Positions 19,876-24,474 of a stretch of DNA of 64,000 nucleotides are shown in pieces. Location of the stretch: assembly GCF_020886775.1 (NCBI RefSeq), contig NZ_AP024525.1:4030001-4094000 (forward strand). The letters run 5' to 3'. Made by a program: the position numbers and the translations under genes. Each line of letters opens with the position of its first letter. Position 1 is the first letter of the stretch. The notes below the pieces were generated by a model. It saw only the letters and a program-made list of their open reading frames with translations, was not told the DNA's origin and searched no databases. This DNA comes from Sinomonas cyclohexanicum (GTDB lineage: Bacteria > Actinomycetota > Actinomycetes > Actinomycetales > Micrococcaceae).

Positions 19876-21114
19876 TTATGAGGCGTGGTCGAGGGTGACG
19901 TTGTATCCGAGGGCCTGTAGCTGGTGGATGGCGCGGTTCTTGGCGCGGTCGGGGTGGTTGCGGGTGTAGTAGTCGGGGCCGGGGTCCTGGTAGAGGGTGC
20001 CGGTGGTGCCCATGTGCCAGATTGTGACCAGGAGCGTGTGCTCGAGTGCGACGATGGCCCTCATCGGGCCGCGGCGGGCGGCGATGCGGCGGTATTTGGC
20101 GTGGAGGTAGGTGCCGGGGTGGTTCGCGCAGACCATGGCGAAGATGCCCAGGGCTCCCAGGAGGTAGGGGTTGCCGGGGCGGGTGCGGGAGGACTTGACC
20201 CTGCCGGCGGATTCGTTGTTCCCCGGGGCGGTGCCGGCCCAGGAGGCCAGGTGGTCCGCGGTGGGGAACCGGGACATGTCCGCGCCGGTCTCGGCGACGA
20301 TGACGTCGGCGATCGTGGTGCTGATCCCCGGGATGGTGGTGATCAGGTCGTGGAAGCCGCGAAAGGGCTCCATGAGCGCCTCGATCTGTGCGGTGAGGGT
20401 CTCGATCGCGGCGGTGTGCTGGTCGATCAGGTCCAGGTGGATCCGGGCCAGGAAGGCGTGGTGGGCGGTGAACCGGCCGGTCAGGGCCTCGGTCAGGGCT
20501 GGGATCTTGGGCCTGAGGCTGGTCCTGGCCAGCTCCGCCATGGCCCCGGGGTCGGTGTTTCCGGTGATCAGGGCCTCGAGCATGGCCCGCCCGGAGACCC
20601 CGAGGATGTCCGTGGCGACGGAGGAGAGCTTGATCCCGGCGTCCTCCAGGAGCTTCTCCAGTCGCTGGGCCTCCCGGGCCCGGTCGCGGGTGATCGCGGT
20701 GCGGGTCCGGGTCAGGTCGCGCAGCTGGCGGATCGGGGCCGGGGGGACGAGCGAGGCCCGCACGAGCCCGTGCGCGCCGAGCTGGGCCAGCCAGGTCGCG
20801 TCGGCGACGTCGGTCTTCCTTCCCGGGACGTTCTTCACCTGCCGGGCGTTGACCAGCATGACCTCGACCCCGGGCAGGTCCTCGAGGAGGTAGTAGAACG
20901 GCTTCCAGTAGTCGCTGGTGGCCTCCATGACCACGCACGTGACCTGCTGCTGGGCGAGGTGTTCGCGCAGGGCCAGGATCTGACCGGTCATGGAGGACCA
21001 TGTCGTGACCGTCTCGACGGCCTTGGCGCGGCCCGTCCCGGCGATGCGGACGCAGACCTTCGCGTCCCGCTTGGAGATGTCGATTCCCGCGCACCGGGGA
21101 TGGAGGAGTTCCAT
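19876..21114 (-). CDS. IS110-family transposase (DEDD recombinase) #1
   Basis: A 412-residue IS110 recombinase. The RuvC-like DEDD domain shows GIDISKRDAKV, VVMEATSDYW and GRKTDVADATW. The C-terminal Transposase_20 domain shows ITTIPGISTTIADVI and ASWAGTAPGNNESAG with the conserved serine. ATG 21114 follows AAAGGAG. The gene is intact, but its upstream leader, where IS110 elements usually encode their guide RNA, has been separated by the inserted IS256-type element. Confidence 0.9.
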   Translation of the reverse strand: MELLHPRCAGIDISKRDAKVCVRIAGTGRAKAVETVTTWSSMTGQILALREHLAQQQVTCVVMEATSDYWKPFYYLLEDLPGVEVMLVNARQVKNVPGRKTDVADATWLAQLGAHGLVRASLVPPAPIRQLRDLTRTRTAITRDRAREAQRLEKLLEDAGIKLSSVATDILGVSGRAMLEALITGNTDPGAMAELARTSLRPKIPALTEALTGRFTAHHAFLARIHLDLIDQHTAAIETLTAQIEALMEPFRGFHDLITTIPGISTTIADVIVAETGADMSRFPTADHLASWAGTAPGNNESAGRVKSSRTRPGNPYLLGALGIFAMVCANHPGTYLHAKYRRIAARRGPMRAIVALEHTLLVTIWHMGTTGTLYQDPGPDYYTRNHPDRAKNRAIHQLQALGYNVTLDHAS

Positions 21115-21246
21115 CGCCTGGCTCCTTTCCGATCGGAATGGCGTCCGCCGCGGGGAGGGCAGGAGAGATTCGGAAGTCTGACGCTCGGGGAGGGTGTCAG
21201 ATGGTTTGTGTGAGGGCGGTGTCCCTGAGAGAAAGCCGAGACACTG

Positions 21247-22073
21247 ATGAGCATGGTCAGCAAGGAAGAGCGGCAGGAGCGCCGCAGGGCCCAGCGTGAG
21301 GGCGTGGAAGCGCTCGAGGCGTCGGGGGCGCTGGATGAGCTGTACTCGATGATCGATGCCGGGCAGGTCCAGCTCGAGGGCAGGGACGGGCTGATCCAGC
21401 AGCTGATCAAGGCCGGCCTCGAGCGCGGGATGCAGGCCGAGCTGTCGGACCACCTCGGGTACGAGAAGGGCGACCCGGACGCGGCGCTGTTCCCGAACTC
21501 GCGCAACGGCTCGTTCCCGAAGACGGTCGGCACGATCGCCGGGGACGTGGAGCTCGCGGTCCCGCGGGACCGGGACGGGACCTTCACACCGATGCTCGTG
21601 CCCAAGGGCGCCCGGCGCCTGTCCGGGCTCGATGACATGATCATCTCCCTGTACGCGGGCGGGATGACGGTGCGCGACATCGAGCATCACCTCGTCTCCA
21701 CGGTCGGCACCGAGGTCAGCCGCGAGACGATCTCCAAGGTCACCGACGAGGTCCTGGACGAGGTCCTGGCCTGGCAGCGCCGGCCGCTGGAGTCCTTCTA
21801 CCCGGTCATCTACCTGGACGCGATCGTGGTCAAGGTCCGCGACGGGGCGCACGTGCGCAACAAGGCCGCGCACATCGCGGTCGGGGTGGACATGGACGAC
21901 GCACGTGCTCGGGATCTGGGTCCAGGCCGCCGAGGGCGCGAAGTTCTGGGCCGGGGTCTGCGCCGAGCTGGCCAACCGCGGCGTCCGGGACGTGCTCATC
22001 GTCTGCTGCGACGGGCTCACCGGCTTCCCCGAGGCGATCGAGGCGACCTGGCCCGAGTCGCTGGTGCAGACCT
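21247..22073 (+). pseudogene. IS256-family transposase, N-terminal part (frameshifted and interrupted)
   Basis: Mutator/IS256 transposase fragment. Frame 1 reads from ATG 21247 through ELSDHLGYEKGD, VPRDRDGTFTP, a catalytic Asp in [14 protein letters not shown] and VGVDMDD. The family sequence then continues in another frame from about 21903 with [15 protein letters not shown] and the second Asp in [14 protein letters not shown] few bases were evidently lost near 21896-21904. The gene is cut at the CT dinucleotide 22072-22073 within the codons for VQTC. Confidence 0.9.
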
Positions 22074-22089
22074 CATCTGTCCACAATGG

Positions 22090-22260
22090 CGGTGGCCGAA
22101 CCGTTCGGCCAGCCACCTGCGCCGTGGCGGTCAGAACCCTTGCAGACGCGTCGCCCTCGAGGCCCACATGCAGACCCGTTCGGCCGCCGCGGGGCAGAAT
22201 CGTGAATCAGCCAGCGGGAGATGCGACGCCGGTGCGGCGATCGCCGAGATGAGGTCCTGA
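22090..22260 (+). ncRNA. Candidate IS110 bridge RNA with matched target and donor guides
   Basis: Noncoding leader of element #2. A 5' hairpin is at 22094-22110 (GGCCGAA/TTCGGCC). TGCAGAC at 22141-22147 equals the seven target bases before C22071-CT. CATGCAG at 22167-22173 pairs with the right target CTGCGTG (one G-U). AGCGGGAG at 22213-22220 equals the element's right end (23724-23731). AGATGAG at 22247-22253 is complementary to the left end CTCATCT. Between the last two is an 8-bp stem with one bulge. The order target guides then donor guides agrees with the IS621 bridge RNA. Exact ends are estimates. Confidence 0.75.
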
Positions 22261-22321
22261 CGCGAGGCTGCCGCGCACCGCCGGCACAGGTGGGTTCAGT
22301 CCGAGAGGAAGGACCTGCGGT

Positions 22322-23635
22322 ATGACAAGTACTGAACTGGCTACCGCTGCCGGGACCCCCGAGGTGTTCGCCGGCGTGGACTGGGGCGGTGCGTTCCACC
22401 AGCTCTGCCTCGTCGACTCGACCGGGGCCACGCTGCTGCAGAAGCGCTTCCCGCACACCGTCGAAGGCCTTGCCGGGCTGTGCGCCGCCCTTGCCGCGGT
22501 CGCTGGCGTGGTCCGGGTCGCCATCGAACGCGCCGAAGGGCTCCTGGTCGAGCGGCTGCTCGAGCTGGCCGTGGAGGTCTACTGCATCTCCCCGAAGGTC
22601 TCCGCCCGGTCCCGGGAGCGCTACCGGATGGCCGCGAAGAAGTCCGACGCGTTCGACGCCTTCGTCCTGGCCGACAGCCTCCGCCACGAACACACCCATT
22701 GGCGCCCGATCCGACCCGCGTCCCAGACCCTGATGCGCCTGCGCGCCGTGATCCGCGACCGCGAGCGGCTCGTGTGGCGCCAGCGCGACCTGGAGAACCA
22801 GCTCCGGGCGGTGATGGAGTCCTACAACCCTGCGGTCCTGCACCTGTTCTCCAGCCTCGACCGGGACATCTCCCTGCAGTTCATCAGGCGCTACCCACAG
22901 CCCGCCCAGGCCGCCCGCGTCGGGGTCAAGCGCATGGACGCCTTCATCACCGCCCACGGCTACTCCGGGCGCACCAGCGCCGAGACCCTCGTGGAACGCC
23001 TCCGCCCCCACCTGCTCGCCGCGGGCGAGGGCACCAGCGCCGGCCGGGCGTTCACCGCAGTGCGGATGGCCGAGGAGCTCTCCCTGCTCAACGGGCACCT
23101 GCGCGAATACGACACCGAGATCCAGGCACTGCTCGCCGCCCACCCCGACACCCGGATCTTCACCGCCTTCCCCGGCGTCGGCCCCGTCACCGCCGCGACC
23201 CTCCTGGCAGGGATGGGCGAGGACCGCGACCGGTACCCCTCCGCGGCGTCGCTGCTGGCCGAGACCGGGCTCGCTCCCGTCACCCGCGCCTCCGGGCGCA
23301 CCCGCCAGGTCCGCTTCCGCTACGCGGCGAACAAGCGCATGCGCCACGCGATCGACTGGTGGGCCTTCGTCGCCGTCCGCGAGGACCCCCACTTCACCGG
23401 CGAGCACTACCGAAGGGCCCGGGCCGCAGGCCAAGGCCACCACCGCGCACTGCGCGGCGTCGCAGCCCGCTGGGTCCGCATCCTCTGGCGCTGCTGGCAC
23501 GACCGCACCGAATACGACCCGGCCCTGCACCCCCTACGCCGGCAGGCCCTCGAAGCCGCCGACCACGCCCAGGACACCGGCCCCATCCCCCAGCGCACCG
23601 CAGAGGAACACCTGGCACTGCCCGCCGCGAGCTGA
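22322..23635 (+). CDS. IS110-family bridge-RNA-guided recombinase #2
   Basis: A 437-residue IS110 recombinase. The DEDD domain shows FAGVDWGGAFHQ, VAIERAEGLL and AAKKSDAFDAFVLAD. A coiled linker follows. The Transposase_20 domain has TAFPGVGPVTAATLL and LAPVTRASGRTRQ, with Ser324 the probable covalent nucleophile. ATG 22322 follows GAGGAAGGA. It is not closely similar to transposase #1, so the two IS110 elements arrived independently. The frame is intact, so the element may be active. Confidence 0.92.
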   Translation: MTSTELATAAGTPEVFAGVDWGGAFHQLCLVDSTGATLLQKRFPHTVEGLAGLCAALAAVAGVVRVAIERAEGLLVERLLELAVEVYCISPKVSARSRERYRMAAKKSDAFDAFVLADSLRHEHTHWRPIRPASQTLMRLRAVIRDRERLVWRQRDLENQLRAVMESYNPAVLHLFSSLDRDISLQFIRRYPQPAQAARVGVKRMDAFITAHGYSGRTSAETLVERLRPHLLAAGEGTSAGRAFTAVRMAEELSLLNGHLREYDTEIQALLAAHPDTRIFTAFPGVGPVTAATLLAGMGEDRDRYPSAASLLAETGLAPVTRASGRTRQVRFRYAANKRMRHAIDWWAFVAVREDPHFTGEHYRRARAAGQGHHRALRGVAARWVRILWRCWHDRTEYDPALHPLRRQALEAADHAQDTGPIPQRTAEEHLALPAAS

Positions 23636-23734
23636 GCCCACGCACACCCCCAGCGGACGGGAAGCCCCCGCCCGCCGATCAGCCCTGCCCCCCGCGACCC
23701 CCATCCGGACCCCAGGGGTTGACAGCGGGAGTCT

Positions 23735-24258
23735 GCGTGGTGCACCTGATCCGGGCCTCGATGCGGTTCGTGGCCTACGGCCAGCGCAAGGCCGTCGCCG
23801 CGGCCCTCAAGACGGTCTATCAGGCCCCGAACGAGGCCGCCGCGAAGGCGGCCCTGGAGGAGTTCGCGGCCTCCGAGCTGGGGAAGAAGAACCCCAACAC
23901 GGTCCGGGCGTTCCAGGACGCCTGGGAGCGGTTCATCCCGTTCCTGGCGTTCCCGCCGATGCTGCGCCGGGTCATCTACACCACCAACGCGATCGAGTCG
24001 CTGAACTACCAGCTGCGCAAGGTCATCAAGAACCGCGGCCACTTCCCCTCCGACGACGCGGTCGTGAAGCTGCTCTGGCTCGCGATCTGCAACATCGAGG
24101 ACAAGCGCGCCCGCGAACGGGCCAAGGAGCGCGGACTGCCTGCAGACCGGCGCAAGGCCGACGGGCGCCTCGTCCAAGGCCAGGTCACCACGAACTGGAA
24201 GCAGGCCCTGGCCCAGCTCGCCCTGGCCTACCCCGAACGCATCAACCCCTACCTCTGA
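23735..24258 (+). pseudogene. IS256-family transposase, C-terminal part
   Basis: Continuation of the split transposase. From GCGTGGTGCACC it reads VVHLIRASMRFVAYGQRKAV, then a helical segment (YQAPNEAAAKAALEEF), the region with the third catalytic residue (IYTTNAIESLNYQLRK) and the normal C-terminus ending NPYL. No start of its own; it is separated from the N-terminal part by IS110 element #2. Confidence 0.9.
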
Positions 24259-24303
24259 ACCAAACCGGAGACCGACCACTCACACAAACAACTTGACACG
24301 CTC

Positions 24304-24474
24304 CGCTCGGGCTCAAAGGCACCAATCCACGGTTCCCGCGGAGGCCCTCCGCCACCATGCTGGAGGACAGGCTCACCGGCACCACAGAAGGTTCGGGGTC
24401 GACCGCGACGGACACCCCCAGCATCCATCCCGCACACACACGGCGCAACCACCGGCCACGCACGAACCTTCGCG
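24304..24474. other. Displaced leader of IS110-like element #1
   Basis: Noncoding stretch between the IS256 target duplication and the outer inverted repeat. By position it is the 5' leader of transposase #1, read on the minus strand. A GAACCTTC word (complement of 24387-24394) matches the element's own end repeat, as a donor guide might, but I could not decode a full set of guides. Confidence 0.45.

Follow-up and report, generated by a model that had tools for sequence, protein, structure and literature searches.

How does an IS110 element come to lie at a codon boundary inside the transposase gene of a different insertion sequence, an IS256 element? Both are contained in the window, the 64,000-nt stretch of Sinomonas cyclohexanicum DNA that we analyzed (Table 1). 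By direct reading, the left junction is ..GGTGCAGAC-CT (22072-22073) followed by CATCTGTCC, with the element starting at 22074, and the right junction is ..TTGACAGCGGGAGT-CT (23733-23734) followed by GCGTGGTGCAC. Joining the flanks without the IS110 element restores ..ESLVQTCVVHLIRAS.. in frame, and the interruption falls between the third base of Thr and the first base of Cys in ..V-Q-T-C-V-V-H.. of the IS256 transposase, which confirms the ends, the CT core and the codon-exact split proposed in a first-pass annotation of this DNA. The split motif is the conserved Q-x-C-x2-H of IS256-family transposases, which we take to be part of the published Mutator signature, and the insertion cuts the transposase before its C-x2-H. 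The element has a left end of 248 nt, in which the RNA structure lies, and a right end of 99 nt; judged by this layout, a long RNA-bearing left end with a short right end, it belongs to the IS110 group and not to IS1111.

Table 1. Features of the IS110 element, its leader and its insertion site, in window coordinates.
Feature	Position	Strand	Remarks
IS256 8-bp target duplication CGCTCGGG	21182-21189 and 24304-24311		direct sequence reading
Target IS256 (Mutator-family) element	21190..24303	+	PF00872 6.8e-53 on left part; ends and duplications compared with copies in the same genome
Left target (LT) TGCAGAC	22065..22071	+	codons of V-Q-T
Left core CT	22072..22073	+	read as inherited from target
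IS110 element	22074..23734	+	1661 bp, one core copy; direct sequence reading; 5 copies in genome
CACAAT, -10-like box of circle-junction promoter	22082..22087	+	predicted, sequence only
5' hairpin of bridge RNA (helix 1)	22094..22110	+	100% of cells paired, 3/7 pairs compensatory
Target-binding loop	22129..22185	+	stem 22129-22137 with 22178-22185, 4/8 pairs compensatory
Left target guide (LTG) TGCAGAC	22141..22147	+	sequence, clade comparison, permutation
Apical hairpin of target loop	22153-22156 with 22160-22163	+	1/4 pairs compensatory
Right target guide (RTG) CATGCAG	22167..22173	+	includes core pairing
Left donor guide (LDG) AGCGGGAG	22213..22220	+	equals right end at 23724-23731
Donor-loop apical hairpin (helix 4)	22223..22244	+	3/4 pairs compensatory
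Right donor guide (RDG) AGATGAG	22247..22253	+	complementary to CT+CATCT
IS110 recombinase, 437 aa	22322..23635	+	PF01548 3e-30, PF02371 7.3e-15; NF033542 4.1e-57
Right end TTGACAGCGGGAGT	23719..23732	+	holds left donor and -35 box TTGACA
Right core CT	23733..23734	+	read as donor-derived
Right target (RT) GCGTG	23735..23739	+	codons of C-V

Two further observations concern the surroundings of the element. Besides being interrupted, the window's IS256 copy is frameshifted, since 5 nt present at about 21898 in the six other copies are missing from it. The same IS256 also cuts the leader side of a second IS110 recombinase (412 aa, 19876-21114, minus strand). Parts of that second IS110 flank three further IS256 copies of the genome on both sides, and were seen on the left side in the window, so that IS256 is an invader of one IS110 and the target of another.

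The recombinase passes the NCBIfam model NF033542 ('IS110 family RNA-guided transposase') above its cut-off, and D20, E69, D109, D112 and S324 align with D11, E60, D102, D105 and S241 in the DEDD RuvC-like and Tnp domains of IS621 (residue names from the available text of PMC11208158). With the single recombinase as query, phmmer found no match in the PDB, whereas a profile of twelve IS110 proteins, this recombinase and the second one of the window included, matched IS621 (1.7e-26) and ISCro4 (4.2e-26) in two stretches, leaving about 80 profile positions between them unmatched. Assignment to TIGR-Tas was rejected, the recombinase scoring 27.9 bits against the NF052498 cut-off of 100.

Relatives were found by recombinase, not by target. 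The search gave 14 loci in the species collection and, in addition, four plasmids. Among whole genomes of the class, matches at E ≤ 1e-60 occurred in 8 of 394 and matches of at least 51% identity in two, the source genome (G000) and G003; in the genus of G003 the corresponding counts were 23 and 8 of 297 (G003, G469, G477, G510, G516, G617, G644 and G646). At E ≤ 1e-100, one of 297 genomes in its own order matched, namely itself, and the Pseudonocardia protein matched 2 of 397 genomes in the order of G003. Viral contigs, scanned once, gave no confirmed relative, and phages yielded one distant relative at 31% identity. In a tree, the IS256-inserting lineage groups together (92/97) and the W-Q-R-C branch is supported (99/98); support for a single V-Q-T-C branch is not firm (61/82), and the root is unsafe owing to one very long outgroup row.

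All 32 records with both junctions, from relatives of about 51% identity or more, lie at the same IS256 codon (29 places), and in each of the 32 Q-x-C-x2-H reads in frame across the joined site. These records comprise 28, L089 and three added later; the pairs L030/L058, L031/L057 and L033/L061 are by their coordinates one place each from two collections, which gives the 29 places, and L086 and L087, on two related plasmids, probably represent a single insertion. The hosts of L086, L087 and L088 (3/32) carry stop codons near the junction and so were, or became, broken. Divided at 90% identity over the left flank, the hosts of 29 records fall into 15 IS256 types, and each of the seven left parts given to Pfam, the window's and six others of the 15 types, is a Mutator transposase (PF00872). 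The 29-record junction set, like the unanchored permutation described below, leaves out L050, L068, L069, L075, L076 and L077, whose junctions are unreadable or unsafe, and includes L045, L063 and L081 with right cores set by hand. The first-pass annotation had spoken of one decoded natural target; its reading of that target stands, but the site is the dedicated target of the whole clade as sampled. Separately, a further insertion has probably occurred within the element L088 (M. chubuense plasmid pMYCCH.01): the distance from junction to junction is 2894 bp, against about 1550 elsewhere, and the recombinase match is split in two.

Could IS256 simply be an abundant target of a clade that inserts elsewhere too? 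The sampled genomes are only part of those known, and among the five loci with a right junction only, L036 has no IS256 continuation and L041 only a few IS256 codons. Against this, IS256 C-x2-H follows to the right of L037, L039 and L040, and L040 also has IS256 on the left, ending at the same residue (these five loci and L042 lack one or both junctions and stand outside the 32). The full count of both-junction records in IS256 was reached with elements sought through their recombinase, and a left-part search found IS256 in the flank of none of 27 loci at 34-40% identity. The exact target pattern occurs three more times in the source genome, in two empty IS256s and at one non-IS256 place, 1788344, where a search of that genome for the exact pattern found no element. 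We therefore regard general abundance as an improbable explanation. In G646, two loci (L101 and L106) have an IS256 that is intact through the target and breaks a few codons rightward into the same unrelated LLTELTPELLQLRAG, perhaps another element with a nearby site.

A second possibility is that a single old insertion produced an IS256::IS110 chimera which then spread as a unit, the common site reflecting descent. The source genome (one contig, 4.41 Mb) holds five copies of the element and seven of IS256; all five elements lie at the same base of IS256, and the two empty IS256 copies keep an uninterrupted 451-aa ORF. Since the interrupted copies have their own 8-bp duplications (two of the five, L024 and L026, share one), such chimeras may well be mobilized in trans. 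L024 (G000:C1 16200-20100) and L026 (4125800-4129700) also have common outer flanks along with that duplication, TCTGGCTC, pointing to a larger duplicated segment. Linked differences to the left and right of the insertion (21525, 21958, 21994, 22045, 23856, 24115, 24141 and 24145) sort the IS256 copies of this genome into two subtypes; both are occupied, which requires at least two insertions or tight gene conversion. In G003, elements identical over 1400 bp sit in IS256s less than 70% identical (best local alignment over 450 bp), and two of these have empty copies in the same genome. Spread of a chimera can add copies, but it cannot explain identical elements in divergent IS256s, and we consider descent from one insertion very unlikely.

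Empty sites in G003 also bear on how the junctions arise. Seven unoccupied sites match an occupied one without difference over about 300 bp in either flank, which suggests that the filled sites did not come from gene conversion of flanking sequence. Two of the seven have the core GT (as L052 and L054) and five CT (as L056). Where a GT site is filled, the left junction has GT and the right junction CT, and filled and empty sites differ by no duplication beyond the core. Across the clade the left cores are CT in 18, GT in 9 and AT in 2 of 29, while the right cores are CT in 29 of 29. These junction sequences indicate that the left core is taken from the target and the right core from the donor. 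The GT/CT pattern is as expected from top-strand exchange 3' of the core; for IS621, strand exchange is placed there in the available text of PMC11208158.

What, then, reads the site? The leader is laid out as a 5' hairpin, a target loop and a donor loop, with one hairpin separating LTG from RTG in the target loop and another separating LDG from RDG in the donor loop. The four leader segments given by the first-pass annotation are correct base for base by direct reading, and so is the order it drew from them, target guides before donor guides as in a bridge RNA. In an alignment of 12 distinct leaders, a four-helix structure pairs 97.5% of 276 cells and has compensatory changes in 11 of 23 pairs. 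Shuffled alignments did as well in 0 of 500 trials on four of five measures and in 55 of 500 on the fifth, further pair types, and sliding the partners by 1 to 3 columns lowered pairing to 34-45%; the structure was derived from the alignment on which it was scored, a bias in its favour. The innermost pair of the apical target-loop hairpin is broken in 4 of the 12 leaders, the window leader included. The two hairpins predicted earlier, at 22094-22110 and between the donor guides, hold in this alignment, as does the expectation of conserved RNA structure in homologous leaders. Taken singly, the window leader does not fold unusually well (z = -1.15); it is the conservation of the fold across relatives that is unusual. 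The leader has no Rfam match at the gathering score, and one weak, unrelated match lies below it.

Guides and targets change together. Most V-Q-T-C (VQTC) members have RTG CATGCAG at a target CTGCAT or CTGCGT, where guide U accepts A or G and guide G accepts C or T by wobble; apart from L034 and L035 these members have one common RTG, constant while the targets vary. L034 pairs RTG CACGCAG with target CTGTGTG. In L086, L088 and L089 the RTG position reads GCGGCAG at CTGCCG and the LTG is TTGGCAG at TGGCA. In the Pseudonocardia and Mycolicibacterium relatives both guides have changed along with the target. More distant relatives match their own targets, at best over 10 nt (L049) and 9 nt (L048). 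Most mycobacterial members have one LDG mismatch (AGCGAGAG).

This agreement was assessed by permutation. With guides anchored in register, 36 distinct elements gave 0 of 100,000 permutations as good for RTG and 0 for LTG, in register windows set after the unanchored result and with permutations that ignore relatedness; the clade alone gave 66 and 237 of 100,000, and for the outgroup by itself both counts were 0. The anchored window did not reach the guides of L072 and L073. Unanchored (n = 35), RTG, LTG and LDG each gave 0 of 20,000 and RDG a non-significant 3665; for the clade only, the counts were 167 (RTG), 72 (LTG), 166 (LDG) and 433 (RDG) of 20,000, and for the outgroup RDG was again not significant (11829/20,000). 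An element's own target was best or tied for its leader in 8 (RTG), 13 (LTG), 23 (LDG) and 7 (RDG) of 35 unanchored cases, so the signal lies in the sum and not in every element; for the window leader, the best RTG-type match lay in the LTG region. Within the clade, RDG pairing is supported by columns 5 and 179, which in 12 leaders read U-A in seven, C-G in three, A-U in one and C-A, a broken pair, in one. The covariation of guide bases with target flanks that the annotation had proposed as a test was found, and the observation it named as refuting, unchanged leaders at unrelated sites, was not; near-identical leaders stand at the same IS256 codon, and changed guides accompany changed targets.

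These comparisons decide against a third reading, in which the recombinase itself recognizes the IS256 site and the leader matches are a by-product of ancestry. VQTC members with near-identical guides and one target would look the same if the site were read by protein, but guides and targets change together in the same register across VQTC, WQRC and distant relatives, the leader has a covarying RNA structure, and IS621 uses such guides (available text of PMC11208160); of the three alternatives we give this one the least credence. Chance leader matches were rejected, as four guide matches together, in any order, arose in 3 of 50,000 first-order random leaders. RTG alone (7 nt, G-U allowed) did so in 34,519 and RDG alone in 10,916 of 50,000, and because they are this common by chance both are weak in the window by itself and are carried by the comparative data.

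The VQTC records (25, at 22 places) also show which mismatches occur at the target. From position -7 to +5, 34 of 35 full mismatches fall at third codon positions, as expected when selection acts on the host protein and the guide stays constant; at the edges, -8 is mismatched in 12 and +6 in 24 of the 25. We read this codon pattern as showing mismatch tolerance, with the guide sitting on what the protein cannot change.

Taken together, we put the probability at roughly 0.93 that this is an autonomous RNA-guided IS110 element whose lineage is dedicated to one IS256 transposase site. Its ends, site, RNA structure, covariation and core inheritance are all read from sequence, and from these we infer transcription, complex formation and recombination as follows. 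The excised circle would bring TTGACA of the right end and CACAAT of the left end to a spacing of 18, from which a leader RNA of about 180 nt would be made. This bridge RNA would pair through LTG and RTG with the codons around V-Q-T|C-[IV] of the IS256 transposase gene, and through LDG and RDG with the joined ends of the element itself. The DEDD/serine recombinase would then exchange strands just 3' of the N-T core, and for this reason the left junction would keep the target core and the right junction carry the donor CT. Within the guide span, guide U and G accept Ile/Val and TGC/TGT by wobble, and for a host IS256 of another lineage (W-Q-R-C-R) both guides are rewritten to match.

The predicted circle-junction promoter is shared by most of the clade: the -35 matches in at least 5 of 6 positions and the -10 in at least 4 of 6 in 24 of 29 members, the -10 reaching only 3/6 in the other 5 and the right end reading TTCACA in place of TTGACA in 2 of the 29. 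For the -10, none of 21 outgroup elements has a 4/6 match. No -35 is present at the integrated left junction. The integrated element reads in the direction of the IS256 gene, so read-through from IS256 may occur. IS621 also forms a promoter across its circle junction, according to the available text of PMC11208160.

Much of this resembles IS621, the E. coli IS110 element with a bridge RNA (PDB 8wt6). Both have PF01548 and PF02371, the DEDD residues and the Tnp serine, and a core with a fixed T and a freer first base; they also agree in a bridge RNA, predicted here, in the left end with a 5' stem-loop followed by target and donor loops, and in a promoter, likewise predicted here, across the circle junction. 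IS621 differs in its length, 326 aa against 437 aa here, lacking about 80 profile positions that separate the RuvC match from the Tnp match, and in its target, REP instead of a protein-coding motif of another IS; its core lies in all four guides (PMC11208160, available text), whereas here it is outside LTG and LDG. ISCro4 (PDB 9t56; chain of 341 residues) is also shorter, a comparison made by its profile match and length alone. Elements of the IS1111 group with seekRNAs likewise choose a repeated target, such as attC or REP, under RNA guidance, but their guide RNA is usually downstream of the gene and here it is upstream (both points from the available text of PMC11187229). The distant actinobacterial IS110 relatives, 34-40% identical, have the same leader layout and guides that covary with their own targets, which are start-codon-like by sequence alone (CTCAT, reverse complement ATGAG) or others, none in IS256. 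In L083, L046, L049, L048, L065 and others, the sites look by sequence alone like start codons on the other strand, and the RTGs match up to 10 nt of the individual site. L066, L072 and L073 have a duplicated left end, as if from two insertions or an abortive second copy in tandem. IS900 has the motif CATGNNNNNNTCTCCTT (PMC8141618, available text), a likeness to these relatives by motif alone.

As bridge RNAs and seekRNAs of IS110 elements are published (PMC11208160 and PMC11187229, available texts), NF033542 is passed and the profile matches IS621 in the PDB, the suggestion that the system looks undescribed was too strong; both mechanism and family are known, from IS110 and IS621. Listings from a literature made up mostly of open-access journal papers showed no prior mention of IS110 in IS256 or of such targeting. 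In Mycolicibacterium hassiacum, 4 of the 11 IS110 copies tabulated have a 609-bp IS256 C-terminal fragment at a distance of exactly 233 bp (PMC10832570, available text), by arithmetic on the printed numbers that takes all as full-length IS110 and C-terminal IS256 copies; these pairs are probably the same nesting. As far as the literature searched extends, an IS110 lineage dedicated to a single protein motif of a different transposon family, together with its natural retargeting, is new.

For the family, we speculate, at somewhat less than even odds, that this is a lineage of RNA-guided hyperparasites, whose bridge RNA would read the codons of an invariant IS256/Mutator motif, tolerate synonymous change and be rewritten for another IS256 lineage, and which would disable the host transposase and be carried onward in trans by other IS256 copies. 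The lineage offers a natural case of bridge RNA retargeting, with two guide dialects that each fit their own host codons and with one genome in which vacant and occupied sites occur together. The rules by which a long actinobacterial recombinase treats mismatches and wobble can be read here from nature, as can which junction inherits which core. One mobile element family would here have specialized on another through an RNA address placed on a protein-conserved motif.
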